From positions 33,513,517 to 33,577,516 of the forward strand of contig CM039463.1 of assembly GCA_022414725.1 (NCBI GenBank): DNA of 64,000 nucleotides, in the 5' to 3' direction. Positions within the stretch are counted from its first letter, which is position 1. Each line of letters starts with the position of its first letter. Position numbers and translations under genes: made by a program. The notes under the pieces were generated by a model. It had not been told where the DNA came from and ran no database searches. It saw only the letters and a program-made list of their open reading frames with translations. The DNA is from Microglena sp. YARC (Eukaryota; Chlorophyta; Chlorophyceae; Chlamydomonadales; Chlamydomonadaceae). This document shows, piece after piece, positions 1 to 64,000 of this stretch.

Positions 1-3000
1 GAAAGCTGCAGTTCAAACCATGATGGCAGTCCAATTCGGTCAGCGATACCATGAGTACTTTGCAGACATTGTGACACACCTATCGGCAGCATTCACGGGG
101 TCTCTTAAAGTCACTTTCGAAAAGTCGTCTCTGCCCCACCCTCACCCTCCACTCCCACCCCCACCCCCACCCTCACTTCCCCACCCTCACCCCCACTCCC
201 TCACCCCCACCCCCACTTCCCCACCCTCACTTCCCCACCCTCACCCCCACCCTCACCCCCACTCCCTACCTTTACCCTCACTCTCACTTCCCCACCCTCA
301 CCCTCACCCTCACTTCCCCACCCTCACTTCCCCACCCTCACCCCCACTCCCTCCCGCACCCCCACTGTACTGCCCTGTACAGGCACTGAGCAGTGCGAGC
401 CTGCCCCTGCTGGCACCTTCACACTGCCTTCACTCCCTTTGCTTGACTATTCTTCCCTCACTGCCCCACCCTCACCCTCACCTTTACCCTCACCCTGACC
501 CTCACCCTCACCCCCACCTCACCCTCACTGTACTGCCCTGTACAGGCACTGAGCAGTGCGAGCCTGCTCCTGCTGGCACCTTCACTAGCGCCACTGGGAT
601 GGCCGAGTACCAGCTTTGCCCTGCTGGACAGAGCAGCGATGCAGGAGCCTCAGCTTGCTTTGATTGCCCGGGAGGTATGTGTGTTTTACCTGCTTTCATA
701 AACATGTGTTTTTGACGCGACGCAGCGACGCGGAAGCCTGAGCTTGCTTTGATTGCTCGGGAGGTATGTTATCAACCTGCTTTGATCAATATGTATTGGA
801 ATGTGTTTTACCTGCTTTGATCAATATGTATTGGTATGTGTGTTTTACCGGCTTTGATAAATATATATCGGTACGTGTTTTACGTGACGCAGCGATGCAG
901 GAGCCTCGGCTTGCTTTGATTGCCTGAGAGGTATGTGTGTTTTACCTGCTTTCATAAACATGTGTTACTATGTTTTGACGTGACGCAGCGATGCAGGAGC
1001 CTGCGCTTGCTCGAATTGCCCGGGAGGTATGTGTTACATCTGCTTTGATACAATGATACGTATGTATCGGTATGTTTTTGACACGACGCAGCGATGCAGG
1101 AGCCTCAGCTTGCTTTGATTGCCCGGGAGGTATGTGTGTTTTACCTGCTTTGATCAATATACAACCAACATACACATTAACCAACACACACATATATTAA
1201 GCAAAACCTGTACTGGTATATACAGATTAACCAATATAAACACTCATCGCCTTTCCCCTAAAGGAGTGGGTGTGGGAGTGGGGTGTGGGGTCGGACTGTG
1301 GGGGTAAGTGGTGGGGGGGTATAGGGGGGAGGGGGGGGGCAGTGGTGTGTGTGGATGGGAGGGAGGGAGGGAGGGGGGGGGGGGGTAAGTGGTGGGGGGT
1401 ATGGGGGGAGGGAGGGGTTAGTGATGTGTGTGTATGGGGGGGAGGGAGGGGTTAGTGATGTGTGTATATGGGGGGGAGGGAGGGGTTAGTGGTGTGTGTA
1501 TGGGTGGAGGGAGGGGTTTGTGGTGTGTGTATGGGGGGGGGGGGGGAGGGGGCTTTCCTGTTAGGGACCCTTACAGAGGCGTTCACTGATGTAGACGGCG
1601 TTAACAGCATGAACAGCATGAACAGCATGAACAGCATAATAGCACTAAAAAGCACTAACAAGAATGAACAACATCCATACAGGGACGTATACCGACGTGG
1701 ATGGCATGCCAGCCTGTATCCCATGCCCTCCAGGGCGGTACAGTGTGGACACTATTGGAGGCAACACAATGTGTACTGCCTGTCCTACTGGTAGCTCAGC
1801 AGAATGGAACATCGTGAAGGACTATCAAACATGGAGCACAAGAATGTATGCCTATTTTGCCAGCGCTTCTTGCTTGCCTTGTCCCATGGGGTACTATCAA
1901 AATGACCCGGGCTTGCCACATTGCAACGCATGTCTCCCATCCACCTTCGCAAATCAGAGTGAGTAAACCCTAAACCCGGGCTTGCCACATTGTAACGTGT
2001 GTCTCCCATCCACCTTCGCAAATGAGACTGAGTAAAAACCCTGAACCCTAAATCCTAAACCCGGGCTTGCCACATTGCAACGCGTGTCTCCCATCAACCT
2101 TCGCGAATCAGAGTCAGTAAACCCTTAATCCGAAATCCGGGTTTTCCACATTGCACCGCGTGTATCCCACCCACCTTCATGAATGAAAGTGAGTGAGAAA
2201 GGCTAAGGCAGGGGGGTTGGGTGCGGATTGATTCATTGCTTTTTGGTTCTGTAGCAGACTTGATCATCAGAGATACTTGCTCGGATGTCGATGCCATCTT
2301 ATGTAGTCAATCGACATATGTATGCGAACAATTTTAAAACATGCTAAATGTTGAAAAGTTGGTATGATGAAGATACCTGACATGTTCATCAATGTATTTA
2401 GAATAGTAATGATTTGTGTCTTTTAAATTAGAGTTAAATCATCTGCATATTACGAACTCTGGGCCCCTGTCGTTTTATGATTTGTTTTGTGTGTGTGGGG
2501 GGGGGGGGGCAGTTCACCAGTGCTTGTTTTGCATTCACCCCTTCCCAATATTGAGTTTGGGCAAGTCTGTTAGGCCTATTTGGCTACGCCTTAACTTGCA
2601 CGAGCCAAACCAATCCCGTCCTGTCACCTGCACAAGCCAAGCCAAACCAATTCCTTCCTGTCACCTGCACAAGCCAAGCCAAACCAATCTCTTCCTGTCA
2701 CCTGCTTAAGCCAAGCCAAACCAATCCCTTCCTGTCACCTGCACAAGCCAAGCCAAGCCACTTCTCCTTTTCACTGCTATCTCTGCCCACACACCACCAT
2801 CATCGTACACACACATGCATGCATGCACAGAAACACTCCCCCCCCCCTCCCCCCCCCCCCCCTACACCACCCTTCACACACTCCACCCGCACACAGCCCC
2901 CCACACACAACCCCCCGCCTCCACGTACCCCACACCCACCCACCCCACCCTCTCCTCTTTCATGCGTGCAGCTAGCCAAGCCACTTGCACCGCCTGCCCT

Positions 3001-6000
3001 GATGGAGCCTTCACCTTACCCACACACACACTTACACTTACCCCCCCCCACACCCCTTCCCCTCCCCTCCCTTCTCTTTCATGCGTGCAGCTGGCCAATC
3101 CACTGTTGCACCGCCTGCCCTGACAGAGCCTTTTTCAGTTCCCGCAGCCAGCTCGTGTGGAACGTGTCCTGCTGGTCAGTTATGAAACACACTTACCCCC
3201 CCCCACCCCCCCGCCCGCCCCCAATGCAGCTGGCCAAACCACAGTGCACCGCCTGCCCTGACGGAGCCTTCTCAGTTCCCGCAGCCAGCTCGTGTGGAAC
3301 ATGTCCTGCTGGCTGGTTATGTGACGCACTTACCCCACTACACACTCGCACACTTACCCCCCACCCACCCACACACACACAACCCCCCCCCACACACAAC
3401 CCCACAACCCCGCCCTCCTTGCAGCTGGCCAAACCACTTGCACCGCCTGCCCTGACAGATCCTTTCCAGTATCCGCAGCCAGCACGTGTGGAACGTGTCC
3501 AGCTGGCCAGTTATCAGGCACACTTACCCCCTCCCCCACACCCCCACCCCCACCCCACCCCCGGTCCCCTTGCAGCTGGCCAAACCACTTGCACCGTCTG
3601 CCATGACAGAGCCTTCTCAGTTCTTGCAGCCCGCACCTGTGAAACGTGTCCTGCTGGCCAGTTATCAGACACACTTAACCCCCTACACACACTTACCCCC
3701 CACCACCACCACCACCACCCACCACCACCCCGGCCCCTTTCAGCTGGCCAAACCACTTGCACCGCCTGCCCTGACAGAGCCTTCTCAGTTCTTGCAGCCC
3801 GCACCTGTGAAACGTGTCCCTGCTGGACAGTTATCAGACACACTTACCCCCCTACACACACTTACCCCCACACCACCCACCACCCACCCCACCACCACCA
3901 CCACCACCACCACCCCGGCCCCCTTGCAGCTGGCCAAACCACTTGCACCCCCTGTCCTGACGGAGCCTTCTCGGTTCCCGCAGCCAGCTCATGTGGAACG
4001 TGTCCTGCTGGCCAGTTCTCAGACACGAGGATAGGAATTTGCCGACCTTGTCCACCGGGTGGTTATGCGCCCAACCCTGGAACCCCTGCATGCATCCCGT
4101 GCACTGCTGGTGAGTGGTGGTGGTGGGGTGTGACCAGGGTACTTCCAAGCGCGCGCTCTCGCGCTGCCTTTTTGAGCCCCACTGCACGTTTCGCGCAGTT
4201 TTTTGCAACCCCCTGTGGGCGCAGCAAGCAATTTCTGCGCTTTTTGCATTACAAAGCGCAGTTTTTATTTTTTCAACTGCGCTAAAGAGCTGGCCAATTT
4301 GGCCAATGGAAGTACCCTGGGTGCAACAAATACAAGCTTATTTCCGGGCAGTGAGTACTAGGGATCCAAGTTGAAATTTTCGAAAAGAGAAATCAACAGT
4401 AAGGGGAGACAAGAAGTAGGGACGATTTCCTACAAAAAGTAGGGACTAGATCCTGGTACCCCTGCAAGCCTTCAGTGCCCTGCTGGTGAGTGGTGGGGGG
4501 ATGGGGGGTGTAACAGATAAAAGCTTATTTCCGGGCAGTGAGTACTAGGTGTAACATTTGAAATTTCCGAAAGGAGAAATCAACAGTAAGAGGAGACGAG
4601 AGATAGGGACAAATTATTACAAAAAGTAGCGACTAGATCCTGAAACCCCTGCAAACCACCAGTGCCCTGCTGGGGAGTGGTGGTTGAGCTCCTAGAAAGA
4701 ACGAAGAAATTGCCGGGTTTGAATCCCCACGGGTGCGATTTAGTGTTCGCGGTCGCTGTCAACCGCCATGGTAGCTTTGTCCAGGTTAAGTAGCAGCCCG
4801 TCCCCTACCGCCGTAAGACGGGGCTCCCTTAATACCACGCCCTACCAGGCAATATCATTACTAGTTGTCTTGTGTCCTGTAGTTTCCTTGGGTTTGTGTA
4901 AGTCCTGTATTTTGTTTTGTTTTGTTTTGCTGCATGTCCTGTACTGCAATTATGTGGCTCGTGTTTGGCGTGGCCCTCTTGAACGTCTGTGCTGAGTCCA
5001 ACGTCCCCACCAGGCAATATCATTTACTTTGCTGGTGAGTGGTGGTGGTGGGGTGTAACAAATACAAGCTTATTTCCGGGCAGTGAGTACTAGGGAGCTA
5101 AGCTGAAATTTTCGAAAAGAGAAATGAACAGTAAGAGGAGACGAGAGATAGGGATGAATGGTTATAAAAGGTACTGACTAGATCCTGGTACCCCTGCAAG
5201 CCTCCAATGCCCTGCTGGTGAGTGGTGGTGGTGGTGGCGTGAAACAAATACAAGCTTATTTCCAGGCAGTGAGCACCAGGCATCTAAGTTGAAATGTTCG
5301 AAAAGAGAAATCGACAATAAGAGGAGATGAAAGCTGTGACGAATTATTCCTAACAGCAGCGACTAGATCCTGGTACCTCAAGTGCCTCCAGTGCCCTGCT
5401 GGTGAGTGGTGATGGTGGGGTGTAACAAATAAAAGCTTATTTCCGGGCAGTGAGTACCAGGCATCTATGTTGAAATTTCGAAAAGAGAAATCAACAGTTA
5501 GAGGAGACGAGAGATAGGGATGAATGGTTACAAAAAGCAGCGACTAGATTCTGGTACCGCTGCAAGCCTCCAGTGCCCTGCTGGTGAGTGGTGGTGGTGG
5601 GGTTTAACAAGTAAAAGCTTATTTCCGGGCAGTGAGTACTAGGGAAATTCGAACCCACCCCACCCACACCCCCACACCCCACCTATTTTTCCTTGCCCTG
5701 TCTGTCCCTTCCAGTCAAGTACTCCAACCTAGGAGCCCTCTCCTGCACCCCCACACTCGCACCTTACCCTAATGTTTCCTCACAGAACTCTTCCCCACCC
5801 TTACTCTTCCTTACAGGCAAGTACTCCAACCCAGGAGCCCTCTGCTGCACCAACTGCCCTGTGGGCCACGCCCCCCTTCCGCACACTCCCTCCACACCCT
5901 AACATATCCCCGCCTATACTTTTCCTCACTCTCTTTGTCCCTTAAGGGTAAGTACTCCAACCTAGGAGCCCTCTGCTGCACCAACTGCCCTGTGGGCCAC

Positions 6001-8957
6001 GCTCCCCTTCCGCACACTCCCTCCACACCCTAACATATCCCCGCCTATACTTTTCCTCGCTCTCTTTGTCCCTTAAGGGTAAGTACTCCAACCCAGGAGC
6101 CCTCTGCTGCACCAACTGCCCTGTGGGCCACGCCCCCCTTCCGCACACTCCCTCCACACCCTAACATATCCCCGCCTATACTTTTCCTCACTCTCTTTGT
6201 CCCTTGAAGGTAAGTACTCCAACCCAGGAGCCCTCTGCTGCACCAACTGCCCTGTGGGCCACACACCCCTTCCGCACACTCCCTCCACACCCTAACATAT
6301 CCCCGTCTATACTTTTCCTCACTCTCTTTGTCCTTTAAGGGTAAGTACTCCAACCCAGGAGCCCTCTGCTGCACCAACTGCTTGAGGGCCATGCTCCTCT
6401 TCCGCACACTCCCTCCACACCCTAACACATCTCCGCCTATACTTTTCCTCACTCTCTTTGTCCCTTAAGGGTAAGTACTCCAACCCAGGAGCCCTCTGCT
6501 GCACCAACTGCCCTGTGGGCCACGCCCCCCTTCCGCACACTCCCTCCACACCCTAATATATCCCCGTCTATACTTTTCCTCACTCTCTTTGTCCCTTAAG
6601 GGTAAGTACTCCAACCCAGGAGCCCTCTGCTGCACCAACTGCTTGAGGGCCACGCTCCTCTTCCGCACACTCCCTCCACACCCTAACATTTCCTCAACCT
6701 AACTTCTCCCACCCCACACACCCACACCCACACCCCACCCCTTATTTTCCCTCACCCTCTCTGTCCCTTAAGGTAAGTACTCCAACCCAGGAGCCCTCTG
6801 CTGCACCCCCACACTTCCACCTTACCCTCATGTTTCCTCACCGAACTTTTCTTTACAGGAAAATACTCCAACTCAGGAGCTCTCTCTTGTACCAACTGCC
6901 CTAAGGGCCACGCGACTGTGAAGGCTGGCTTGCCCTTCTGTTCAGCATGTGCTTTTGGGCACTATGCCAACGCTTCCATCGGTGCGTCGGCGTGCATCTC
7001 TTGCCCGGCTGGCACCTTCTCAAACAGTTGTGAGTGGAATGACTGAGTCTGATCGGGCGATGGAGCAGTGGGGTGATGGAGCCATGGGGCAGTGAGCCAT
7101 TGGGGTGATTGGGCAGTGGGTTGATGGGGCATTGGGGAGGTGGAGCAGTGGGGCTGTGGGGTGATGGGTCATTGGGACGGTGGGGCGATGGGGTGACGGG
7201 GCATTGGGGAGGTGGGGCGATGGGGCATTGGGGAGGTGGAGCAGTGGGGTGATGGGCAGTGGGGTGATGGGGCAGTGGGGAGGTGGGGTGATGGAGCAGT
7301 GGGGAGGTGGGGCGATAGGGAATTGGGGAGGTGGAGCAGTGGGGGCAGTGGGGTGATGGGGCAGTGGGGTTATGGGGCAGTGGGGAGGTGGGGTGATGGG
7401 AGGTGGGACGATGGGGAATTGGAGCAGTGGGGCAGTGGGGTGATGGGGCAGTGGGGAGGTGGGGCATTGGGAGGGTGGAGCAGTGGGGCAGTAGGGTGAT
7501 GGGGCATTGGGGTGATGGGCGATGGGGTTCTAAACCGTTAACCCTAAACCCTGGACCCTCAACTCACCCACACACACAGCCTCTGCCACTCTCTCAGAGT
7601 GCCTGGAGTACCCACACAACTTCCTCTTTCCTCAAGCACCTCACCTCACATCACCTCACCTCACATCCTCACATCACCCACACTCACACTCACAGCCTCT
7701 GCCACTCTCTCAGAGTGCCTGGAGTACCCCCACAACTTCCCCTCACCTCACCTCATCCACACCTCACCTCACCTCACATCCTCACCTCACCTCACCTCAC
7801 CTCACCCACACTTGCAGCCTCTGCCACCCTCACCGAGTGCTAGGAGTGCTCCCACAACTTCACCTCACCTCGCCACACCTCACCTCACCCTACCCACTCT
7901 TGCAGCCTCTGCCACCCTCACCGAGTGCTAGGAGTGCTCCCACAACTTCACCTCACCTCGCCACACCTCACCTCCCCCTACCCACTCTTGCAGCCTCTGC
8001 CACCCTCTCCGAGTGCTAGGAGTGCTCCCACAACTTCACCTTACCTCGCCACACCTCACCTCACCCTACCCACTCTTGCAGCCTCTGCCACCCTCACCGA
8101 GTGCTAGGAGTGCTCCCACAACTTCACCTCACCTCGCCACACCTCACCTCCCCCTACCCACTCTTGCAGCCTCTGCCACCCTCACCGAGTGCTAGGAGTG
8201 CTCCCACAACTACACCTCACCTCGCCACACCTCACCTCCCCCTACCCACTCTTGCAGCCTCTGCCACCCTCTCCGAGTGCTAGGAGTGCTCCCACAACTT
8301 CACCTCACCTCACCATACCTCACTTCACATCAACTCATCTTACCTCATTTCACCTCACCTTACCCACACCCACACCCAGTCACCCACACTCGCCATGCCT
8401 CACCTCACCCCACCTCACCCACACACCTCACCTTACTCACACTCACACTCACAGCCTCTGCCACCCTCTCAGAGTGCCTGGAGTACCCCCACAACTTCCC
8501 CTCCCCTCACCTCATCCACACCTCACCTCACATCCTCACCTTACCTCACATCCTCACCACATTTCACCTCACCCCACCTCACCTCATCTCACCTCACCTC
8601 ACCACACCACACCTCACCACACCCACACTTGCAGCCTCTGCCACCCTCTCCGAGTGCTTGGAGTGCCCCCACAAATACCCCTCACCTCACCTCACCTCAC
8701 CTCACCTCACCACACCACACCTCACCTCACCCACACTTGCAGCCTCTGCCACCCTCTCCGAGTGCTTGGAGTGCCCCCACAACTTCTATGGCCCCAGGCC
8801 AGGGATGAGTGAATGCGTTGCTTGCCCTCCTGGCCAATTCACATGCCGCTACGGAGCCGTGCGCTGCTCCAAAATAGCTTGCAAGGAGCCCCTGCCGCCT
8901 GCTCCCCCCCCAGGTCCACCTAAGCCCCCTCCAACGAAACCTCCACCTCCGCCCTGA
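1..8957 (+). CDS. Cys-rich GCC2/GCC3-like repeat protein, 3' part of a multi-exon gene
   Basis: Five exons can be joined: 546-674, 1683-1958, 3930-4109, 6859-7029 and 8743-8957 (TGA at the end). Every intron is phase 1, so the joins stay open throughout. The protein is a string of short Cys modules such as CPAGQFSDT, CRPCPPGGYA, CIPCTAG, CPKGHA and CISCPAGTFS. This is the pattern of GCC2/GCC3 (ephrin-receptor-like, TNFR-like) extracellular repeats, which are usually disulfide-bonded and found on surface or secreted proteins. The last exon ends in a Pro-rich tail (PPAPPPGPPKPPP) after CSKIACKEP. No signal peptide or membrane segment is visible, so the 5' end probably lies left of the window. 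Bases 1 to about 98 may be another exon, but no convincing donor follows. The family assignment is from motif reading. Ligand and partner are unknown. Confidence 0.65.
110..545 (+). repeat. C-rich intron minisatellite with a decoy copy of the next exon head
   Basis: The tract is built of CCCCAC, CCCTCA and CCCTAC-type units on the coding strand. At about 366-425 it holds a near-identical copy of the acceptor and first about 50 bases of the exon that starts at 546 (GCACTGAGCAGTGCGAGCC). That copy then breaks off without a donor and is followed by more C-rich repeat. Confidence 0.7.
675..1190 (+). repeat. Tandem copies of an exon 3' end plus donor site
   Basis: After the exon ending at 674 (CCCGGGAG then GTATGT), the segment GACGCAGCGATGCAGGAGCC...GATTGCCCGGGAG with its GTATGT donor recurs near 714-775, 880-935, 975-1030 and 1078-1135. 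Spacers of TTTACCTGCTTTGATAA-type sequence separate them. The copies carry small substitutions, but the donor is kept in all of them. Confidence 0.8.
1260..1555 (+). repeat. G-rich intron minisatellite
   Basis: GGGGGGAGGGAGGGGTTAGTGRTGTGTGTATG-type units run as purine-rich sequence on the coding strand, upstream of the exon at 1683. Several G runs exceed eight bases, so length polymorphism and G-quadruplex formation are plausible. Confidence 0.75.
1959..2200 (+). repeat. Three decayed copies of an exon tail plus donor
   Basis: The exon ending at 1958 finishes GGGCTTGCCACATTGCAACG...CTTCGCAAATCAGA before GTGAGT. The same about 70-base piece recurs at about 1978-2035, 2060-2115 and 2145-2195, separated by TAAACCCTAAA-like spacers. 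The later copies are more diverged (AATGAGACTGAGT, AATGAAAGTGAGT). Confidence 0.8.
2455..2770 (+). repeat. Dispersed-family fragment followed by a 37-bp tandem repeat
   Basis: Bases 2455-2600 resemble the CATA-tailed dispersed family seen at 40308 and 62545 (GGGCCCCTGTCG..., AGTTCACCAGTGCTT, TTGGGCAAGTCTGTTAGGCC). From about 2605, CACAAGCCAAGCCAAACCAATC...TTCCTGTCACCTG repeats about five times. I see no gene here. Confidence 0.6.
2790..3929 (+). repeat. Array of about seven acceptor plus exon-head copies
   Basis: GCAG followed by CTGGCCAAACCACTTGCACC and up to about 90 more exon bases occurs at about 2968, 3089, 3228, 3422, 3573, 3742 and finally 3926, where the real exon begins. C/CA-rich spacers of 60-100 bases separate the copies. 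The copies stop after the CCTGCTGGCCAGTTATCAGACAC segment. Only the last copy reads through into CGAGGATAGGAATTTGC and a donor at 4110. A long open frame crosses this array but is an artefact of the repeat. Confidence 0.85.
4135..4319 (+). mobile_element. hAT-like MITE, copy 1
   Basis: A 185-bp element is bounded by the inverted termini CAGGGTAC and GTACCCTG. It is flanked by an imperfect 8-bp duplication (GGTGTGAC left, GGTGCAAC right). The unoccupied tandem-array units around it read GGTGTAAC at this point, so they act as empty sites. A CAGGG terminus and an 8-bp target duplication fit the hAT superfamily. The interior is rich in GCGC motifs and has no transposase. A second copy lies inverted at 9654-9836. 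Confidence 0.8.
4675..4862 (+). mobile_element. SINE-like dispersed repeat, copy 1
   Basis: A box-B-like GGGTTTGAATCCC near 4717 follows GGTTGAGCTCCTAGAAAG. The downstream body (GTCGCTGTCAACCGCCATGG, ACGGGGCTCCCTTAATACC, ACCAGGCAATATCATTA) recurs in the same orientation at about 59425-59575. Two copies with a tRNA-like head suggest a tRNA-derived SINE. The A box is poor, so the class is inference. Confidence 0.5.
5690..6858 (+). repeat. About 130-bp array of acceptor plus exon-head copies
   Basis: AAGTACTCCAACCCAGGAGC...CTGCACCAACTGCCCTGTGGGCCACGC followed by CCCCTTCCGCACACTCCCTCC and a pyrimidine tract recurs at about 5716, 5820, 5950, 6082, 6212, 6343, 6474, 6605 and 6775. The tenth copy, with acceptor ending at 6858, continues into the genuine exon 6859-7029. 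The pyrimidine tract plus TTACAG or TTAAGG before each unit resembles a 3' splice site, though many copies have AAGG instead of CAG. Confidence 0.85.
7030..7540 (+). repeat. G-rich minisatellite, GGGGCAGTGGGGTGAT units
   Basis: Purine-rich units such as GGGGCAGTGGGGTGATGG, GGGGAGGTGG and GGGGCATTGG run from just after the donor at 7030 to about 7530. Open frames across it encode low-complexity Gly/Trp or Pro/His strings and are not genes. Confidence 0.85.
7560..8742 (+). repeat. About 88-bp array of acceptor plus last-exon head
   Basis: GCAG-CCTCTGCCACCCTCTCCGAGTGC followed by TTGGAGTGC or TAGGAGTGC and CACAACTTC, then CCTCACCTCGCCACACC, repeats about ten times. Spacing is exactly 88 bp in the middle (7837, 7925, 8013, 8101, 8189, 8277). 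In the middle copies TTGGAG has become TAGGAG, giving an in-frame stop, so using these acceptors would truncate the protein. The copy at 8743 is the true terminal exon. Confidence 0.85.
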
Positions 8958-9395
8958 TCCGTTCATGCGTTGCTTGCCCTGCTGGCCAATTCACATGTCG
9001 CCACAGAGCTGTGCCCTGCTCCAAGATGGCTTGTAAGGAGCCCCTGCCACCGGCTCCCCCCCCAGGTCCCCCTAAGCCACCTCCACCTCCGCCCTGATCC
9101 GTTCATGCGTTGCTTGCCCTGCTCGCCAATTCACATGTCGCTACAGAGCTGTGCCCTGCTCCAAGATGGCTTGTAAGGAGCCCCTGCCACCGGCTCCCCC
9201 CCCAGGTCCCCCTAAGCCACCTCCACCTCCGCCCTGATCCGTTCATGCGTTGCTTGCTCTGCTCGCCAATTCACATGTCGCCACAGAGCTGTGCCCTGCT
9301 CCAAGATAACTTTCAAGGAGCCCCTGCCACCTGCTCCCCCCCCAGGTCCACCTAAGCCACCTCCAACTAAACCTCCACCTCCGCCGTGATCCGTT
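8958..9395 (+). repeat. Three tandem copies of the gene's own C-terminal coding end
   Basis: The segment from TGCGTTGCTTGCCCTGC to CCTCCGCCCTGA (about 140 bp, including the stop codon) recurs at about 8958-9096, 9097-9236 and 9237-9388, just after the TGA at 8957. The copies keep GTGCCCTGCTCCAAGAT and the Pro-rich tail. They presumably lie in the 3' UTR. An AATAAA at 9416 could be a polyadenylation signal, but this is weak. Confidence 0.8.
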
Positions 9396-14618: not shown

Positions 14619-14619
14619 C

Positions 14620-15359: not shown

Positions 15360-15600
15360 AGAAGAAAGGATAGAGGGTGCCGCCCCTCAATCCTCTCACA
15401 AACAGTAAACTCACATGCTCCACCACCTTGCCTCGGCATATGGAGCCACGCCACTTACTCCTCACACAAACAGGATACTCACATGCTCCACCACCTCGCC
15501 TCGACACATGGGGCCACGCCACTTACTCCTCACACAAACAGGATACTCACATGCTCCACCACCTTGCATCGGCACATGGGACACTCCCCTGTCTTAGACA
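15360..15600 (-). repeat. 68-bp tandem copies of the RING gene 3' end
   Basis: The minus-strand segment coding CR.KVVEHVS.LFV, its stop region and ACACAAACAGGATACTCACATGCTCCACC recurs about three times (about 15400, 15470 and 15540). Only the copy at 15530-15570 joins the gene. The right-arm gene has a single copy. Confidence 0.75.
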
Positions 15601-17472: not shown

Positions 17473-17505
<33 letters not shown>

Positions 17506-18731: not shown

Positions 18732-18744
18732 GCTCCCACGCCAC

Positions 18745-18926
18745 TTGTCGTGATCACACTCAGGAGTTGATGCTAAGCCACTAATATTGTTACAGTTCTA
18801 CTATCCCTAGATGGCCGACGTGTTGGCAACTACTTGCAAGCTGTCAGCCCTGGGATGGATGACTAGCTGCAGGAGTGTCAATCTGCAAGTAGTCAGCATA
18901 GGGGCGATGATGGTGTTTGTGTGTGT

Positions 18927-18957
<31 letters not shown>

Positions 18958-31966: not shown

Positions 31967-31999
<33 letters not shown>

Positions 32000-41400: not shown

Positions 41401-42496
41401 ATGCACATGTCCCAATACATTTCCTCAACCCGACCTCCTTTTTGCAGGATGTGTCTTGAACTTGGTTACATGGCTCCAGCGGACAATTTGGCAGCTCGCC
41501 ATCTCAGGCAGTACAAAAAAAAATTTACCAGGGAAAATGTAAACATGAATAAACCATTTTTTGTCTTCTTCATTTTTCTTATTTATATACTTTTTATCAT
41601 TTCCCCTCTCATTTCGCAGGATATGCTACTGACACTTATTTGATCATTTCCCCCTTCCATTTCGCAGGATATGCTACACACACTTATTTTATCATTTCCC
41701 CCTTCCATTTCAAAGGATATGCAACCCACACTTATTTTATCATTTCCCCCTTCCATTTCGCAGGATATGCTACTGACACTTATTTTATCATTTTCCCCTT
41801 CCATTTCGCAGGATATGCTACCCACACTTATTTTTTCATTCCCCCCTTCCATTTCGCAGGATATGCTACTGACACTTATTTTATCATTCCCCCCTTCCAT
41901 TTCGCAGGATATGCTACCCACACTTATTTTATCATTTCCCCCTTCCATTTCGCAGGATATGCTACCCACACTTATTTGATCATTTCCCCCTTCCATTTCG
42001 CAGGATATGCTACACACACTTATTTGTATCATTTCCCCCTTCCATTTCGCAGGATATGCTACCCACACTTATTTGATCATTTCCCCCTTCCATTTCGCAG
42101 GATATGTTACCCACACTTATCTTATCATTTCCCCCTTCCATTTCGCAGGATATGCTGCCCACACCAGAAGCCATGGAAGAGCCCGCTCTGACTCCTGGGG
42201 CCAAGCCAAAACCAATGACAGTTGCGTTAGCTGCTGAGCTGTTCAAGACTAACCAACTGCATGTCAAAGTCCAGTACGCACGAGAATTGGTGGCAACTAA
42301 TGTCGAGGGAGTGAGCAACCCATATTGCAAAATCAGTGTGGGAGACCAGCCGCTGCGCACCAACCATGTCATGGGATCTTGCAACCCCGACTGGAATGAG
42401 ACGTTTACATTCTCTGGCCAGGTAGGATCCATCTAGGTTCAGGTTTAAGTTTGGGTTAAGTTTCACCAGATATGCCCTGTCATGATAGAAGAAGTA

Positions 42497-42529
<33 letters not shown>

Positions 42530-48500: not shown

Positions 48501-48971
48501 TTAGTGTATATGAGGAGCCCTGCATTGTTTTCATTCGGGTGAGAGTGGTGGTCGTGGTAGAGTGAGTGTATACCAGTATACCCACCCCACTCCCATCCCC
48601 TGCCCCATTAGGTGGATTTGACTGCTGCAGTGTGCAAACTATTGCTTGGGATCATTCATCCAACCATCCACCCACCCACCCCACATACCACATACATACA
48701 TACATACATACATACATACATACCACATACATACATACCACATACATACATACATACATACATACATACATAATACATACATACATACCACATACATACA
48801 TTAATACATACATATACATACATACATACATAATAATACATACATACATACCACATACATACATGCACACATACACATACATACATACATAACATACCAC
48901 ATTACATAATACATACATACATACATACATACCAACAAATACATAACATACATACATACATACATACAGCA

Positions 48972-49002: not shown

Positions 49003-52000
49003 CATACATACATACATACATACCACATACATACATACATACATACATACATACATACATACATACATACATACATACATACATACATACATACATACAT
49101 GCACACATACTTTCATACGAGCATAAATACATACACACGTACGTACGTGCAGGTGGCCATTCATGAAATCCAACTGCCGCATGACCTGGAGGAGCTTCGA
49201 AGAGCCCCAACAGGAATTGGAAGTGCCAGCTTAGGTTGCCAGCCTGTTAATGGCTTGCACATGAATGCCAAGGGCATGCAGGGGATGAACAAGTCGTTGG
49301 GAAGGTCGTACAACAGACGGGGCAGCATGTCCAAGGAAAATAAGTCCTTTTTCGGTCGATTCGGTGTTAAGGACAAGGACCCTGTTTTCTCAAGGTTTGG
49401 GAACCCGGCTGGTTTGTCCGCCATGTCTGGGATGGGAGAGGTGAGTCAGGGCGTGTTTTGGTTGCGCAATGTTTTTGTTAGAGACCTTTAAGATCCGGCT
49501 GGTTTGTCTGTCATGTCTGGGATGGGAGAGGTTAGTGTGGGCGTGTTTTGGTTGCGTAATGTTTTTAATAGAGACCTTTAGAATTCCGCTGGTTTGTCCG
49601 CCATGTCTGGGATGGGAGAGGTGAGTGTGGGCGTGTCTTGGTTGCATAAAAAAAACAGTTATACTAAACAGTTATACTGAACAGTTATACTAAACAGTTA
49701 CCTAACAGTTATACTTAGGTTCCTCTAGTCCCCATAAGAAATTCGAATTTGCCAACTTTTAAAGCGTCCCCCAGCCCACCTAAGGTTTTTTATACATTGA
49801 TTTTTCATACATGGCGTTGTTATACATTTAGTTTTTATACATTAAGTTTTCATACATGGCGTTGTTATGCATTTAGTTTTTATACATTAAGTTTTCATAC
49901 ATGGCGTTGTTATGCATTTAGTTTTTATACATTAAGTTTTCATACATGGCGTTGTTATGCATTTAGTTTTTATACATTAAGTTTTATACATGGTGTTGTT
50001 ATACATTTAGTTTTTATACATTTAGTTTTTATACATTAAGTTTTTATACATGGTGTAGTTAAGCATTGAGTTTTCATATTTGGCGTTTTAATACGTTGAG
50101 TTTTAATACACTGAGTTTTATGTATGGCGTTTTTAAACATTGAGTTTTTATACATGGTGTAGTTATGCATCGAGTTTTTATGTTTGGCGTTTTAATACGT
50201 TGAGTTTTTATACACTGAGTTTTATGTATGGCGTTTTTAAACATTGAGTTTTTTATATCGTTTCGTTATTGCCCCTCCTGTCATGGTTGGGAAAGTCCCT
50301 TCAGCCTTTTACGTCTATCCCTGGACTGTAACATTTATATACACATCCTTAATGGCCTTTTCCAAGTTTCTGCCTTTTATGTGTGTCATGTGTCTGTCAT
50401 GTGTGTGTGTGCCTGCCAGACCCGCTGGACTGGAAGGGGCCGTGTTCTTTAAGGATGACTTTGCATATGCATGCACCCCTGGACTGTAACATACATACAC
50501 ACACATCCTTGATGGCCTTTTCCAAGTTTCTGCCTTTTATGTCTGTCATGTGTCTATCATGTGTGTGTGTGCCTGCCAGACCCGCTGGACTGGAAGGGGC
50601 CGTGTTCTTTAGGGATGCCTGTGCATATGCATGCACCCCTGGACTGTAACATACATACACACACATCCTTGCCGGCCTTTTCCAAGTGTCTGCCTTTCAT
50701 GTTGGTCATGTGTCTGTCATGTGTGTGTGTGCCTGCCAGACCCGCTGGACTGGAAGGGGCCGTGTTCTTTAGGGATGACTGTGCATATGCATGCACCCTG
50801 GACTGGAAATACATAAACACATCCTTGCAGGCTTTTCCAAGTGTCTGCCTTTCATGTTGGTCATGGTGTCCTGTCATGTGTGTGTTGCCTGCCAGACGAC
50901 CGCTGGACTGGAAGGGGCCGTGTTCTTTAGGGATGACTGGTGCATATGCAATGCACCCCTGGACTGGAAATACATAAACACACCATCCTTGCAGGCCTTT
51001 TTCCAAGTGTCTGCCTTTCATGTTGGTCATGTGTCTTGTCATGTGTGTGTGTGCCTGCCAGACCGCTGGAGCTGGAAGGGGCCGTGTTCTTTAGGGATGA
51101 CTGTGCATATGCATGCACCCCTGGACTGTAACATACATACACACACATCCTTCAAGTGCATATCGACCTGGACTTAAAAGATGATGACCCAGACGTAACA
51201 ACATATCCTACACGTGCATAACGACACGGACTTCAAAGAGGCTGACCCAGACAAGCACAACATATTTTAACATGCAGAACGAAGTGCAATTCAAAGATTA
51301 TGACCCAGACATCGACATCTACGCCGACTCAGACGAGGAGGAGGAGTTGGAGCTACCGCCTGAGCTCCAGCCTTCGAAGAAGAAGAAGGCTGCCAAGTAC
51401 TGGATTTACTGTGAGGTGGGATCCCCCCCCCCCACCCCACCGCACACCACCCCCACACACACACACCATCATCCCACCCGCTGACCCTCACCCACCCACC
51501 ACCCACACTGCCATCATCCCACCGCTGACCCTCACCACCCACCACCCACACCCATCATCCCACCCCGCTGGTGAATACTCACCCCCCACACCCATCATCC
51601 CGACCACACCCCCATGCTGACCCTCACCCACCCAGTCCCACCCACCCACACCCCATCATCCCACCCGCTGACCCTTTACCACAGTGGCCACCCATACCAT
51701 CAACCCACCCACACCCTTTCCAAAACCATCCGCTGAACCTCATCCACACCCTATTAACTTGCAATACTGGATTTACTGTGAGGCTGAGCTCCCACCCACC
51801 CACACCCACATCCATCAAACCACAAACCGCCGCTGACCCTGACCCACCCACCCACACCCACAACGCAACCGAGACCCTTACCCACCCGCCACCCACACCC
51901 CACATCCCACCCACCCACACCCCATCAACCACCAAACCAACACCCCATCAACCCACCCACCCACCTCACCAACCAACCACACCAAGCGACAATCGGCTCG

Positions 52001-55000: not shown

Positions 55001-55705
55001 GTGAAGAACGCCTAGCAGGAACACACCAACACCAACACTCACACCCGCAGCGCACTCACTCCACACCCATGCCACACTCACACCCACTCCCGCGACCTAT
55101 CAACTCACCCACACCCACACCCAATAATACACGCAGGTGAAGAATGCCAAGCAGGAACACACGAGCAAGCTTCGCCGAGTGGACCCCGTGACGCGGAAGT
55201 GCAAGTTTGAACAGAGCTTTGTGTTTCCAGAAGTCCGACCGCTCCACAGACGCGCCCCAGTCCAGATCTTGTTCTATTTCACAAACAACAAAACGTGAGT
55301 TTAGGGGTGGGGGAGCTCGGGGAGGGGTGCGGTGGGGCGTTTTTGGTGATGTTTTTGTAGTGGTTGTTTGTTGGTGGTAAAAAGCTGTGAGCTTGGTTCA
55401 CCAGTTTATTATTTTAGATCCTTGGCTGTATGTTGGGTTGGGCAAGGCCCTTCAGCCTATTTGGCTACCCCTGGAAAGTACACTTGCACACACACAGCAA
55501 TCTGACAGCATGACCTACAATTTCCCCCTATGTCCCCCCCTCCCCCCCCCCCCTCCCTCCCTCCCTCCACACAATCCCACAAACCCACAAACCCACACCC
55601 ACACCATCCCCTCCTACATGTTGCAGGCAAGCCGGTACGTAGATCTGCAAGAAGTCAATCTGCATGCTCACGCTGCTGCTCTCTCCCCCCTCCCCCCCTC
55701 TCTCT

Positions 55706-55746: not shown

Positions 55747-57905
55747 CCTCCCTCCCCTCTCTCCCTATCTCTCTCTCACACACACAAAAACACAAGCACA
55801 CAAACACCCAAACCCACACCTCCCTCCCACATGTTGCAGGCAAGCCGGTACGTTGATCTGCAAGAAGTCCACCTGTATTCTTACGCTGCTGCTCTCTCCC
55901 CCCTCCCTATCTCTCTCACACACACATACACACCCAAACACCCACCCAAACACCCACACCCACACCTCCCTCCCACACGTTCCAGGCGAGCGGGGACGTT
56001 GATCTGCAAGAAGTCAATCTGCATGCTGAAGCTGCTGCTGATTCATCAGAAGGCTGACATGGAGGCAGAGCTGCAGTGGGACCACCCCTCATTGCCAAAG
56101 AAGCACACACGCTTCATCGACAACCCAACACAAACACCCACCCAAACACCCACACCCACACCTCCCTCCCACACGTTCCAGGCCGAGCGGGACGTTGATT
56201 TCTGCAAGAAGTCAATCTGCATGCTGAAGCTGCTGCTGATTCATCAGAAGGCTGACATGGAGGCAGAGCTGCAGTGGGACCACCCCTCATTGCCAAAGAA
56301 GCACACACGCTTCATCGACAACCCAACACAAACACCCACACAAACACCCAAACACACACCTCCCTCCCACACGTTCCAGGCGAGCGGGGACGTTGATCTG
56401 CAAGAAGTCAATCTGCATGCTGAAGCTGCTGCTGATTCATCAGAAGGCTGACATGGAGGCAGAGCTGCAGTGGGACCACCCCTCATTGCCAAAGAAGCAC
56501 AAACGCTTCATCGACAACCCCACAGTGGCACCAAAGTTCAGCCTACCATTGATTGATCAGGAAATGGACAACGTGACTGTGAGCATGCACGTGGGCGCAG
56601 CTGACATGGACTACCGACCACAGATGTACAATGTACCGCTGGTCCCTCCCGAAATCCAGGAAGAAATGACTCAGGTGAGCTTGGCTTCTCACAACATCGT
56701 GTCATGATCGTATGCACAATCCATGGGCTAGGTGTTTTCAGGAAATGGACAACGTGACTGTGAGCATGCACGTGGGTGCAGCTGACATGGACTACCGACC
56801 ACAGATGTACGATGTACCGCTGGTCCCTCCCGAAATCCAGGAAGAAATGACTCAGGTGAGGTTGGCTTCTCACTACATCGTGTCATGATCGTATGCACAA
56901 TCCATGGGCTAGGTGTTTTCAGGAAATGGACAACGTAACTGTGAGCATGCACGTGGGTGCAGCAGACATGGACTACCGACCACAGATGTACAATGTACCG
57001 CTGGTCCCTCCCAAAATCAAGGAAGAAATGACTCAGGTGAGCTTGGCTTCTCACTACATCGTGTCATGATCGTATGCACAATCCATGGGCTAGGTGTTTT
57101 CAGGAAATGGACAACGTAACTGTGAGCATGCACGTGGGTGCAGCAGACATGGACAACCGACCACAGATGTACAATGTACCGCTGGTCCCTCCCGAAATCC
57201 AGGAAGAAATGACTCAGGTGAGCTTGGCTTCTCACTACATCGTGTCATGATCGTATGCACAATCCATGGGCTAGGTGTTTTCAGGAAATGGACAACGTAA
57301 CTGTGAGCATGCACGTGGGTGCAGCTGACATGGACTACCGAACACAGATGTACAACGTGCCGCTGGTCCCTCCCCAAATCCAAGAAGAAATGACTCACGT
57401 GAGGTTGGCTTCTCACAACATCGCGTCAGGAATGTGTGCACAATATATGGGCTAGGTGTTATTCAATCAATAGACAACTTAACTGTGAGTATGCATGTGG
57501 TGGCAGCAGGCATGGACCACCGACCACAGATGTACAATGTACCGCTTGTCCCTCCCCAAATCCAAGAAGAAATGACTCAGGTAAGCTTGGCTTCTCACAA
57601 CATCGTGTGCACAATACATGGGCTAGGTGTTTTTTCAAGAAATGGACAACGAAACTGTGAGTATGCACGTGGGTGCAGCAGGCATGGACTACCAACCACA
57701 GATGTACAACGTCCTGCTTATCCCTCCCCAAATCCAGGAAGAAATGACTCTGGTGAGCTTGGCTTCTCACAACATCGTGTGCACAATCAAGGGGCTGGCA
57801 TTTGCTTTAGCAATTCAGCGGATAATTTTGAATTCGATTTTTAAAAACCGTTGAAGGTCATACTCCCTCCCTCCCCTTCTTATTCTGACCCCACCACCAC
57901 CACCA

Positions 57906-57946: not shown

Positions 57947-60043
57947 AATCAGGTTACTAACACCAGTACCCAACAAGAACATCCAACATCCATCACCCAG
58001 CACTCACCAAGAATACCAGTCTACTACCACCAACCCCTCATATGTACACACACACACCGACCTCACATGCCTAGGCCTAGGCCTAGGCCGACTTGGGAGT
58101 ATTTACCAGATTTTGACCTCCCCCAATCACTGCTCATCATTCAGGTGTGTAGACTTTGCCTTTGGTTAACATCATATGAAATGCTGTTCCCTTCTTATTA
58201 TTAGGGGTCGGCTATGTTTTGTACTTATATTAGCGAATAAATCATATTAAATACTATTATATAATATTAGTCGGACGAGCCGTCTCACCATAATTTTGAA
58301 TATATTTGAAAAACTAATATTATTGTGACACTGTAATAACATTAGTTTTTCAAGCATTAATATTAGTTGCCGTTCCCTACGTGTTATACATGCCCATGCC
58401 TAGGTCAACTGACAAGTGTTGACCAGATTCTCTCCTCCTCCTCCCTCCTCCCTCCCTCCTCCCTCCCTGCATTTAAAGGAGTCTCCAAAAGGATGTATTT
58501 TATTTCAATTCTAAAGGATTCATTTTATTTCAATTCAAAAGGATTTATTGTATTTCAATTCAAAAGGATTTATTGTATTTCAATCCAAAATGATTTATTT
58601 TATTTCATATATAATGTAGGCATCCACTGCTCACCGTGCAGATGCTTGGACTGGAGCTAGACGAGGTGTACCAGAATGCCCAGAAGCAGCAGCAAAGTGC
58701 AAGTGAAGCTGACAATGTGACAAAGTACACAAGTGGTGATGTAAAAAGCCCAAGCTTCACCGAAGTCATGGAGCATGTGCAGCAAGCGATGGCAAGAACT
58801 GACCCGAAGGGATACGCCGAGAGTCTGATGCAAGGCTCGAAGCTGCTCTACGGCCAAAGCCTAGCGCAAACGGAGGAGAAAGAGGAGAGAGGTGGCAAAG
58901 CTGCGGCTTCTGCGACGGTGAAGGAGGCTCAGACCCAGAAAGTGACCTTTGCGGGTGATGAAGATGCTGAGGATGGGTTGGTACGTAAGGTAGGGCACTA
59001 AGGGTTATTTGGGGCTACTTCAGGATATTTCAGGCTATTTGGGGCTGGTGGAGATGCTGAGGATGGGTTGGTACGTAAGGTAGGGCACTAAGGGTTATTT
59101 GGGGCTACTTCAGGATATTTCAGGCTATTTAGGGCTGGTGGAGATGCTGAGGATGGGTTGGTACGCAAGGTACGGCACTAAAGGTTATTTGGGGCTATTT
59201 CAGATGGCAAGAATGGGGTTGAAGGGACACATCGAGAGCCTCATGCACGGCTCGAATCTGGTCTACGGCCAAAGCCTAGCGCAAACGGAGGCGAATGAGG
59301 AGAGAGGTGGCAAAGCTGCAGCTTCCGCGACGGTGAAGGAGGCTCAGACCCAGAAAGTGACCTTCGCAGCTGATGGAGATACTTGGGATGGGTTGGTGAT
59401 CACCAAGGTAGGACACCAAATGGGGTTCAACTCCCCCTTCGGTCGCTCTTGGCGTTGCAGGTTGTTGTCAACTGCGATGGTAGCTTGTCCAGTTGAGGTA
59501 AGAGACCACTCCCCACCCACGACAACGGGCTCCCTTAATACCACGCCCCACCAGGCGTTATCATTACCTTTTTTAGGACACCAAAGGTTATTTCAGGCTA
59601 TTTGGGGCTGATGGAGGTGTACTAGTACGGTAGCCCACAAGCACGTAGACAAACCACCCCCACCCCAATCATAGTACGGTGACCGTTTGGTCTTCGGCCA
59701 CACCTGTTTGGGGCTGGGTTACAGAATGGTTTACACTTGTTCTCCCCCCCACCCTTCACATGGACCACACAGCCATGATGTTTCCCACTGAAAACCCTGC
59801 CCCCCCCCCTCTCCCTTCCCTCCCCGTAGGCCACACCTGATTTGGGCTGGGTTATAGAACGGTTTCCGCGGGTTTCTCTGCAGTGCCTGCAACTGAAAAA
59901 CACTGACGGACGCATATTCCCACCATTCGCCCACCCATGGTGACTTGCAGGAGGGGGCTGGGTTACAGAATGTTTTACACTTGTACTCCCCCCCACCCCT
60001 CACATAAACACACAGCCATGATGTTTCCCCCACTAAAAGCCCT

Positions 60044-60076
<33 letters not shown>

Positions 60077-63000
60077 TTCCCTCCCATTAGCCACACCTGA
60101 TTTGGGCTGGTTACATAACGGTTTTCCGCAGGTTTTCTGTGCAGTGCCTGCAACTGAAAACACTGATGGACGCACATCCCACCACACGCCCACCCACGCT
60201 GGCTTGCAGGAGGCCAAGCGCACTAGAGATGACTGATTAACTGTGGAACCTCAACCTGACCACACCACCACACCCCCGTCCCCACACCCCCGTCCCCACA
60301 CCACGCCCACCCATGTTGGCTTGCAGGAGGCCAAGCACATTGGAGATGGCTTGTTAACTCTGGAACCCTGACTTCACCACACCACCTCCCACCACCAACA
60401 CACCACACCACACACCCACACTACACACCCACACCACACCCCATACCACACACCCACACCACGCCCACCCATGGTTGGGCTTGTAGGAGTCAAGCGCATT
60501 GGTGATGACTTTCCCAGAGCATCGCAGTCATGGGCACCTCTGGACCGTTGGCACCACTCCATCCCCACCTCACCTCACCACACCATCCCCACCACACACA
60601 CACCACCCACACTCCCCACCATGCTGGCTTGCAGGAGGCCAAGCGCACTAGAGATGACTGTTTCAACTCTGGAACTCCAACCTCACCACACACCCCCACC
60701 CCACCACACACCAACACCACACACCCCGCACTCCACACCCACACGACGACACCCCCATCACCACACACCCACACCACACACCCACACTCCATCCCCACAT
60801 GACACCCCCACACCACCCTCACCACCACACGCCCACCCATGTTGGCTTGCAGGAGGTCAAGCGCGTTGGTGATGACTTTGTAGAGCACACAGTCATTGGC
60901 ACCTCTGGCTGGAAGATGCCCTCCTTGATGCAAACCATCGTAGCGTGGCTGCTGGCGCCCCTCATTGAGATGGTGATGGGACGCGTACAAGAATGTAAGC
61001 AACGCATGAAGATCAGGAGATGTGGAACAGAAGGTGGTGGCCATGTTTTATCCTATGATCAAGAATGTCGAATTAGATATACACAAGCAGAGCATGAAGA
61101 TCAGAAGATGTGGAACAGAAGGTGGGTGGTATTTACATTTATATTTGTGTTTATATTTAGCCAATAATTCACAAGGGCATGTTAAGCCAATGGCTCGTAG
61201 GGAACGGCAACTTATATTAGTGTGTGAAGAACTGATATTAACTAATATTATTATAGTGTCACAATAATATTAGTTTTTCAAATACATTCAAAATTCTGGT
61301 GAGACGGCTCGTCAGTCTAATATTAACTAACATCCACTAATATTATTTATTCACTGATATTATGTAACTTAGCCTTTCCCTAACAGTTCATAATGTGGGT
61401 GGGCACATAATGTGGGAGGGCGCAGAATGTAGGTGGGCACAGAATGTGGGTTGGGTAGGGTACTTAGATAGTTCACAATCATATAAATAAGCACAATAAT
61501 TGTTATAATTTCACTACAAGTCAGCATGATCAGCCAATGGGCACAGAGTGTGGGTGGGCACGGGAGGTGGGTGGGATAGTGTACTTATCCGGATGATCAA
61601 TGGGAATAGTCGAATAGATATACACAAGCAGGAGCATGACGAGCAGGAGATGTGGAACAGAAGGTGGGTGGCCATGTTTGGCCAATGGTTGAGGAGGTAC
61701 GTAGGCACAGGGTGTGGGTGGGCACAGGAGGTGGGTGGGTAAAGAAAGTGGATGGCCATAGTTATCCTATGATTCAGAATACATGCACGAGCAGATAATG
61801 ATTCAGAATATATAATGATTCAGAATATAATTATAGTTTTCAGAATATAATTATAATTATGATTATTTTCAGAATAATACGGGATATATAATTATAATTA
61901 ATTATTATATAATTATAATTATGATTATTTTCAGAAATAATTATAATAATTATGTTATTTTCAGAATACGGGATATATAATTATAGATTAATTATTATAT
62001 AATTATAATTATGATTATTTTCAGAATATAATTATAGAATGATTCAGAATATATGCACGAGCAGAGCATGAAGAGCAGGAGATGTGGAATGTGGAACAGA
62101 AGGCGGGAGGCCATGTTTAGTCAATGGTTCAGGAGGTGGGTGCGCACAGAGGGTGGTTGCGCATATTTATAGGTACCGGCATATCATATGATTTTGACCA
62201 AAGGCGAGTATGATATCATACAATTGATCATATGATTTTTTTGTATAAAATGGTGCTTTGGCCTAGTCAGACTGCCGGCATCATATGATATCACATGATT
62301 CTTATAGACATGATACATACTTTTTCTGTTCCCTACATATTTAGCAAACGGTTCACAAGGTGGGTGGACATTCAAGGTGTTTGCGCATATTTAGCCTCTT
62401 TGGCTACCCCTGGAGAGTAGCATAGAGATGTGGAGCAGCAGTGGTGTGGCCATGTTTAGACAATGGAATTCAGTTTAGGTGGGTGGGCAAAGAAGGTGGT
62501 CGCATTATTTTAGCAAATGATTACAATTACATGATCACTGTAGCACGAACTCAGGGCCCCCGTCGGTAAAACAATTGTTTGGGGGTCAGTTCATCAGTGC
62601 TTTTTCTTTTTAAGCCCTTCCTGCACGGTTGGGCAAGTCCCTTTAGCCTATTTTGACCACCCTGGACTGTAGCATACATACAAATGGTTCAGCAGGGGGC
62701 AGTGGTGGGCACATAATGTCGTCGCGCGTATTTTGCCTTCTATTTAGGCTTCCCTCTGGACTATTGCAATTCATACATGGCGCTGCAATATTACTCCATA
62801 ACCACATAAACTAACGAATTGTTGAATTGTTTGTGATTCATTGCATCGCTCAGTAGTTCTGGTGGAGAACCTGGACATCACTGGCCACTGGAAAACTGTA
62901 ACAAAACGCATGCATGGCTGCAATATCTCCACTCATTCTAATCATGAATTGTTTGTAATTCGATTGCAGTGTTTTTCTGGAGGAAGACCTCGACATCACC

Positions 63001-63943
63001 ACGGCACCAAGAGATGGAGAAGGCCTCTTGCAATCTGGAACAATACATACATGGCTGCAATCTCTTCACCATAATAACTCGTGAATTGTTTGTAATTCGT
63101 TCACAGCATTTTGGGGGGGAAGACCTGGACATCACCACGGCACCAGTAATGGAAAGGCCCACTGGAAAACTGTAACAAAACATGCATAGCTGCAATCTCT
63201 TCACCAAAATAACTCATGAATTGTTTGTAATTCAATTGCAGTGTTTCTGGAGGAAGACCTGGACATCACCACAGCACCAGTGATGGAGAGACCCTCAGCA
63301 AAGCTGTCACGTTGCCAAGCGGAGCAGGGCCGCTGGTCTCCCAACATTCTTGCAGGTACGCTTGTGGCAGCAGTGATTGTAGTGACGGGGGTTTAAGGTA
63401 CACTTGTGGCAGCGGTGACTGTAGTGAGGGGGATTGAAGGTACACTTGTGGCAGCGGTGACTGTAGTGAGGGGGATTGAAGGTACACTTGTGGCAGCGGT
63501 GACCGTAGTGAGGGGATTGAAGGTACAGTTTGTGGCAGCCGGTGATTTGAAGGTGACCGGAATAGTGCAGATGGTGGTGGGGCGAGGGTGATTGGCGTGC
63601 GAGCTGTGTTGTTGTAAATCGAAAGGATGTTGCCAGGGTAGGTACAAAGGTGGGCGTTTGTGGAGGCAGCGGTTATTTGGTAGTGTGGGGGATGGTGGCG
63701 AGGGCTGAGATTAGTGTATGTGAGGATGGTGCTAGGGCGGTGGCGATGTGGTCGTGTGCGTGGTGAAAAGTAGTGTACAGGAAGTTTACCAACTCAACTT
63801 GACAGACATGGACCCCCCGGGCTCCACGCTTCGCGCTCTGCGCGGGTTCGGGGGGCCAGCGCACTGGGGCTGCTACCGACTCCGCTCTTTGCGACTTGTC
63901 GCGCGAAAGAAAAAAAAACGGTCCGGCGACCTGTTAACACTTC

Positions 63944-63978
<35 letters not shown>

Positions 63979-64000: not shown

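Follow-up and report, generated by a model that had tools for sequence, protein, structure and literature searches.

Mirage-type tandem arrays crossing exon edges enlarge introns in a photosynthetic eukaryote

Exon-edge arrays in the window

The analysis of a 64,000-nucleotide stretch of eukaryotic DNA (the window), situated on a contig of 94.8 Mb in an assembly totalling 568 Mb over 2390 contigs, revealed tandem arrays built from the edges of exons as a real and frequent pattern, of the type described as mirages, that enlarges introns. In genes A, C and F, intronic copies that include 8 or more exon bases were present at 20 of 36 junctions, and 15 of the 18 introns of these genes carried exon-edge copies. 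The longest exon piece copied ranged from 12 to 200 bp per junction. All 20 junctions align on the intron side too, and that alignment adds the acceptor at 546. Copies crossing exon edges were likewise observed in other genes, and paralogues occur both with and without the expansion. In a set of 20 introns that includes those of gene B and one of gene D, only 6,780 of 33,138 bp are non-duplicated DNA, so that approximately 80% is locally duplicated when all repeat types are counted, and removing local duplicates shortens the median intron from 1498 bases to 236. Over the window as a whole, 39-47% of the 40-mers find a 28/40 match within 1.5 kb, versus 0.03-0.26% in a Markov shuffle.

The window was selected on account of the array finding itself, and exon edges were set without use of the repeats, from reading-frame phase and GT-AG dinucleotides. 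Gene A (546-8955, plus strand), cysteine-rich and with an Ephrin_rec_like match, was modelled from 546 onward. The C2-domain gene F (38483 to beyond 64000, plus strand) has 12 phase-consistent GT-AG introns, and its edges were additionally fixed by the homologous protein P0001, later recognised as the gene model of a paralogue. The Arm-RING genes B (minus strand) and C (plus strand) are paralogues of each other, and gene D (30621-37482, minus strand) is a poorly resolved model read only by eye. A search returned 118 chlorophyll a/b-binding matches in the genome, and the organism was therefore taken as photosynthetic.

Genes B and C, at 15530-27914, resemble an inverted duplication whose spacer, at approximately 18.8-22 kb, is an inverted repeat, as judged by eye. 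The long intron of gene D contains an LTR-type element (31320-36010) with a Pol_BBD match and, below threshold, a zinc knuckle. A reverse transcriptase match was absent in the two frames searched, and the comparison of the retroelement with a phage collection returned no match.

The original prediction, largely right as a description, listed 22 array-bearing exon edges and extended the pattern to every gene of the window. Nineteen of the edges were confirmed as repeats extending into the exon. They comprise the donors at 674, 1958, 4109, 25444, 42421, 43966, 48074, 49440 and 58980 (exact edge 58989), and the acceptors at 546, 3930, 6859, 8743, 42149, 51278, 55137, 56380, 60853 and 63242; the acceptors at 546 and 55137 have a single extra copy each, and that at 51278 was recovered solely as a TRF unit, with none from crossing-copy searches. 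The other three were not upheld: the array at donor 63355 begins at the junction and includes fewer than 8 exon bases, and the gene D edges at 30621 and 37482 yielded weak matches at the junction (30/40 and 25/40). The extension to every gene proved wrong, since such copies are absent at 16 of the 36 junctions of genes A, C and F, the intron interior of gene D is just 2% duplicated, and 13 light-harvesting loci outside the window are nearly array-free. Edges beyond the earlier list include the donors at 56674 and 51415 (one copy), the low-complexity acceptor side of 47905, and two arrays crossing a stop codon, in genes A and B. Arrays are also present in intergenic DNA.

Organisation of the arrays

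In gene A (plus strand; unit lengths in bp), a single extra acceptor copy at 365..424 crosses into 40 bp of the head of the exon at 546. Donor arrays follow exon 546-674 (675..1161; unit 96, 42 bp of exon tail, 4 crossing copies) and exon 1683-1958 (1905..2121; unit 69-85, 54 bp of exon, 2 crossing copies). Exon 3930-4109 is flanked on both sides, by an acceptor array at 3084..3929 with 6 crossing copies and up to 97 bp of exon, and by a donor array at 4319..5643 with a unit of about 187, 34 bp of exon and 5 crossing copies. The acceptor array of exon 6859-7029 lies at 5819..6858 (unit 131/261, 55 bp of exon), and that of exon 8743-8955 at 7637..8782 (unit 88-108, 44 bp of exon, 10 crossing copies). 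Some copies at 5819-6780 read AAG followed by GTAAGT, which we take to resemble recursive splice sites. The gene ends in a TRF-detected array holding no splice site (8939..9365; unit 140, 3.0 copies), in which the tail of the coding sequence, the stop codon and the 3' flank are repeated.

On the minus strand, gene B bears a stop-codon array at 15391..15580 (unit 68, 2.8 copies), where a comparison by eye shows three copies versus a single one in its paralogue C, and an intron with two units of exon tail plus donor at 17730..17843. The homologous Arm introns on the plus strand hold one exon-tail unit at paralogous exon C1 (23131..23195) and five 52-bp units, with 12 bp of exon tail, at paralogous exon C2 (25433..25708).

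In gene F (plus strand), exon 42149-42421 has an acceptor array at 41592..42164 (unit 48, 16 bp of exon) and a donor array at 42422..43171 (unit 182, approximately 95-120 bp of exon). The donor array of exon 43705-43966 (43967..45820) contains 7 crossing copies, the remaining copies retaining just the donor plus spacer (TRF unit 57), and was not counted as edge-linked in the array-family test described below. Further donor arrays belong to exons 47905-48074 (48045..48572; unit 105, 30 bp of exon), 49153-49440 (49405..49649; unit 90, 33-39 bp) and 58642-58989 (58948..59203; unit 90, about 42 bp), and further acceptor arrays to exons 51278-51415 (51143..51311; unit 58, 34 bp, TRF unit only) and 63242-63355 (62885..63294; unit 135, up to 69 bp). 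Both edges of exon 56380-56674 are duplicated, on the acceptor side at 55748..56524 (unit 196, up to 145 bp of exon) and on the donor side at 56557..57787 (unit 181, 118 bp of exon, 6 copies). A single extra acceptor copy with 26 bp of the head of exon 55137-55294 lies at 55001..55136, and dispersed acceptor copies of exon 60853-60994, 4 of them crossing, at 60178..60852. The donor-side array from the 63355 junction (63350..63545; unit 42) includes almost no exon and is not edge-linked in the array-family test.

The acceptor-side array before exon 47905 (46062..47942) is of low complexity, with 17 weak crossing copies. It spans 1.9 kb and is based on hexamers (CCTAAA/CCTCAA) with a telomere-like look. 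At 47905-47960, exon 5 opens with approximately 16 proline-rich, array-like residues that are missing from the paralogue protein P0001; array DNA may have become coding at this exon start. At 51416-55000 lies an irregular CCCA-rich array of 3.6 kb with indel noise, perhaps in part sequencing error. The seven copies (the exon's own plus six) of a 38-codon exon tail at 56561-57760 constitute candidate tandem cassette exons.

Occurrence elsewhere in the genome

Kinesin motor matches numbered 128 and fell on each of the six large contigs as well as on some of the smaller contigs; some matches were partial neighbours with a common exon edge. From an initial pick of 20 in the match table, ten kinesin genes were used, selected for size and for exon matches that were contiguous; partial duplicates had already been noticed at 3 of the 10 loci before testing. 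Among their well-supported introns, which leave out 4 of 18 with weak splice scores, 12 of 14 copy their own exon edge, some through one copy of about 80% identity, and 17 of the 28 junctions have exon-edge copies. With all 18 introns the junction count is 21/36, and the unduplicated part amounts to 3,652 of 20,123 bases.

The 13 light-harvesting loci are close paralogues and hence not 13 independent cases. In the stretch around two matched exons they showed local duplication of 0-1%, except for one locus (L041, 10%) in which a 16-bp repeat array ends at an acceptor, and the gaps separating matched exons measured 245-644 bp. Fisher's test of kinesin introns (12/14) versus light-harvesting loci (0/13) gave 6e-6, with the 13 loci related to one another and scored differently, by local duplication and TRF instead of crossing copies. 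Arrays are few in the light-harvesting genes looked at, where splicing or expression is probably under strong selection. Nineteen arbitrary 10-kb stretches, placed at hand-chosen round coordinates and not at random ones, held a mean of 3.6 complex arrays each; one was a pure satellite, and the other eighteen were 0.4% to 72% duplicated. Coding-potential gene finding on these stretches returned no usable genes.

Exon edges and the origin of the arrays

The prediction that arrays lie at exon edges beyond chance was sustained when counted by array family in present introns and not when counted by base. The flanking exon's edge is contained in 25 of 38 array families (window 16/26, kinesins 9/12; genes B and D excluded, and families sharing an intron not independent), versus 5.1 expected from random placement in present introns, and a reversed-unit control gave edge links in 0/38. 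Per base, the duplicated junctions were 21/44 in the window versus 56-65% for intron interiors, and 19/36 in the kinesins versus 21.8 expected. Junctions are hence not more duplicated than intron interiors in the window and kinesin introns, an outcome that could arise once an intron is filled by arrays. The idea that arrays respect exon edges was not borne out either, since units run 12 to 200 bp into the exon at no fixed distance; as a fraction of the unit, exon overlap is spread over 0.18-0.74, with a mild departure from uniform (KS P 0.04).

Random placement in deduplicated introns yields 17.7 expected edge families versus the 25 observed (P 0.005). By founding intron length, the expectation is 28.8 for 150 bp, 21.9 for 250 bp, 17.5 for 350 bp and 14.5 for 450 bp. 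The edge excess is still significant for founding introns of 350-600 bp (P 0.006 to <0.0001), including those of 350 bp with the complexity filter dropped (P 0.014-0.022), and loses significance once founding introns are about 250 bp or less. Dropping both the complexity and the period filters gave 26 edge-linked of 47 to 63 families, with the pattern unchanged. Short founding introns could explain most of the edge excess, and the exon gaps of the light-harvesting loci leave room for some true edge preference.

We consider it probable that these arrays are mirage-type minisatellites, generated by ordinary tandem duplication across existing exon edges, tolerated, and then subject to array turnover. 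Under this explanation, a local tandem duplication, mostly of about 40-200 bp, would straddle the exon edge of an existing intron or the end of a coding sequence, each array starting by slippage, microhomology template switching or unequal exchange. The duplication would be tolerated because one intact edge remains, with the exon-nearest copy retaining the correct splice site or stop codon. The array would then expand, contract and homogenise, and the intron would reach one or a few kb. Edges would be over-represented mainly because founding introns were short, a few hundred bp or less, so that a unit of 50-200 bp often reached the exon; a modest extra edge preference may contribute. The arrays at two stop-codon edges indicate, with only two cases, that a splice site is not required. 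In addition, the periods of three arrays lying within coding exons are 93, 111 and 24 bp, all multiples of three, as expected if selection filters a general duplication process. The recurrent mechanism at splice boundaries proposed in the original prediction was accordingly not established, as stop-codon arrays and in-frame exon arrays need no splice-specific mechanism.

Several observations stand against the explanation by ordinary duplication. Pure neutrality predicts neither the intact decoy dinucleotides nor the third-position lean described below; light-harvesting introns, though array-poor, are not that short (245-644 bp); the edge excess is significant with founding introns of 350-600 bp; and the overlap with the exon is mildly non-uniform.

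An edge-directed process, tied to transcription, splicing or exon structure and recurrently copying exon edges, would account for the 25 edge families where 5.1 (present introns) or 17.5 (350-bp introns) are expected, and for the donor arrays found at exon 4 in both C2-domain paralogues with unrelated intron parts. The identity of crossing copies bears on it as well: of the 14 junctions with at least 4 copies, 10 showed identity declining away from the exon, 3 showed it increasing and 1 showed no trend (rho -0.8 to 0.6). The declines hint weakly that arrays may be reseeded from the edge. A conveyor-belt model, in which the copies beside the exon are the newest, is weakened by this mixed pattern and was not convincing. 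Against edge-directed duplication stand the per-base comparison, the lack of any fixed distance between splice site and exon extent, the arrays likewise found on two stop-codon edges, and an excess that is not significant at founding introns of 250 bp or less; we regard it as unlikely. The wider proposal that genome-wide preferential duplication of splice and coding-end edges seeds much intron length in many genes, with selection keeping splicing-active decoys, appears doubtful.

Decoy splice sites and state of the copies

As had been predicted, the arrays create decoy splice sites in numbers. Among crossing copies, GT is intact in 59/62 at donors and AG in 76/78 at acceptors, together 135/140, a count that leaves out the acceptor at 47905 (AG intact in 1/17). 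With copies compared among themselves, splice dinucleotides exceed other positions by 0.11 at donors (12 arrays, P 0.0098) and by 0.10 at acceptors (13 arrays, P 0.046); versus the same dinucleotide elsewhere, donors are borderline (P 0.047) and acceptors show no excess (P 1.0). A first version of the dinucleotide test, in which copies were compared with the exon, was biased by the exon's own constraint and was redone among copies; codon-position counts of copies versus exon, subject to the same bias, were replaced by the copy-copy comparison. Decoy sites have not been purged, and selection may be keeping them. Of 16 arrays, 6 contain stops (11 in total) and 5 contain frameshifted copies (7 in total), and segregating sites distribute over the codon positions as 49/50/75, with a third-position lean (P 0.024). 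Array copies thus evolve nearly freely, close to neutral.

The protein P0001 is a predicted protein containing three copies of an exon head. It is encoded by the paralogous locus on contig C4, with stretches identical by eye, and must hence be the gene model of this organism or of a near-identical strain. P0001 and P0002, which follows the same naming style, were dropped as evidence from related species, P0001 belonging to the C4 locus.

The copies could also be tandem exons under selection, used as alternative or repeated exons, which would make the arrays functional. In the exon frame, the six copies that follow 56674 are free of stops and frameshifts, and an AG precedes most of them; these features, the intact GT or AG in 135/140 copies and the exon-head copies in P0001 would be consistent with such use. 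The stops in 6 of 16 arrays, the frameshifted copies in 5 of 16 and the weakness of the codon-position skew among copies (P 0.024) argue against it, and P0001 may be a gene prediction instead of a proven mRNA, so that functional tandem exons seem improbable.

That the arrays are ordinary intronic satellites without relation to exon edges would fit the 13 of 38 families that have no edge link and the arrays in intergenic DNA, but was already disfavoured by the presence of the flanking exon's edge in 25/38 families and in none of the controls, and is very improbable. An assembly or sequencing artefact, as frame breaks and homopolymer noise in some coding stretches might suggest, is hardly credible given that array copies diverge from each other by 1-26%, that array content differs from paralogue to paralogue and that light-harvesting loci in the same assembly are nearly array-free.

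Growth inside existing introns

The claim that arrays enlarge pre-existing introns was substantiated by unit counts that differ among paralogues in shared introns. Three paralogous Arm introns, otherwise alignable, contain 1, 2 and 5 copies of the 52-bp exon-tail unit, and an Arm intron probe search, among the best candidates scored, returned those three loci only. The C4 paralogue of gene F has 77% nucleotide identity in exon 3. Comparing the C2-domain paralogues on contigs C2 and C4, respectively, the exon 4 acceptor has 0 versus 4 copies (of which one includes just 8 exon bases), the exon 5 donor 4 versus 0, and the exon 3 donor 5 versus 2. The exon 4 donor has arrays in both paralogues, with mostly different exon extents. 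Near-identical repeats in the Arm proteins were dropped as evidence, being confounded by Arm repeats. Three probes searched against the genome revealed no second haplotype and, among the best candidates scored, matched their own or paralogous loci only, with no dispersed near-identical copies at unrelated loci.

Given that paralogues hold the same intron with little or no expansion, the introns were enlarged and not created; in the cases compared, namely the Arm intron and a set of C2-domain junctions, paralogues share the intron whether or not it carries an array. Intron gain through tandem duplication of AGGT-containing exon pieces involves the same kind of duplication event and has a precedent in potato, so far as the accessible text of that report extends, but the unexpanded introns at the same place in paralogues leave it almost no credence.

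Relation to known systems

In amphioxus, tandem repeats whose unit spans the exon-intron boundary have been termed mirages; in the accessible part of that paper their units measure 10-72 and 150-160 bp, many copies keep AG/GT, and regular splicing is backed by RT-PCR (PMC3902484). A later mirage paper, in its accessible part, extends the list to PGBD5 and refers to Adh and troponin C. The arrays analysed here have boundary-spanning units at 20/36 window and 17/28 kinesin junctions, some of them single extra copies, and both 5' and 3' intron boundaries are duplicated. As in the amphioxus cases so far as they are described there, the unit joins an intron end to part of an exon on donor and acceptor sides in variable copy number, unit lengths overlap (here mostly 42-196 bp), and many copies retain AG/GT (here 59/62 and 76/78, except at 47905). 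Unlike the amphioxus mirages, which on the same accessible text concern few genes in one animal group, the arrays affect 12/14 kinesin and 15/18 window introns of a photosynthetic host, with introns about 80% locally duplicated (all repeat types) and two stop-codon edges involved; mirage splicing is supported by RT-PCR in amphioxus, whereas the present pattern is known from DNA.

In potato, according to the portion of the report available, introns have been gained by tandem duplication of AGGT-containing pieces. There, as here, a duplication crossing the intron-exon boundary provides splice signals; unlike that single duplication producing a new intron, existing introns are enlarged here, often by many copies. 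Introner elements are dispersed mobile copies that contribute much intron sequence. The arrays resemble them in making up a large share of intron sequence and differ in that the three probes, among the best candidates scored, found only their own or paralogous loci.

Within the open-access literature searched, exon-edge arrays of this kind were found described in amphioxus only, and the accessible portions of the literature on the alga Cymbomonas contained nothing on such arrays. The present arrays differ from the amphioxus precedent in how large a share of introns they affect, in lineage, in reaching two stop-codon edges and in their contrast with the light-harvesting genes. The arrays add a second lineage, besides amphioxus, for mirage-type arrays, and gene models in array-rich genomes can take in decoy copies, as exemplified by P0001. 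They also provide many loci where authentic splice sites compete with near-identical decoys, so that spliceosome site choice can be examined in a natural setting. Overall, these results suggest that introns in a large genome can grow largely via local duplication, often with exon edges, instead of via transposons.
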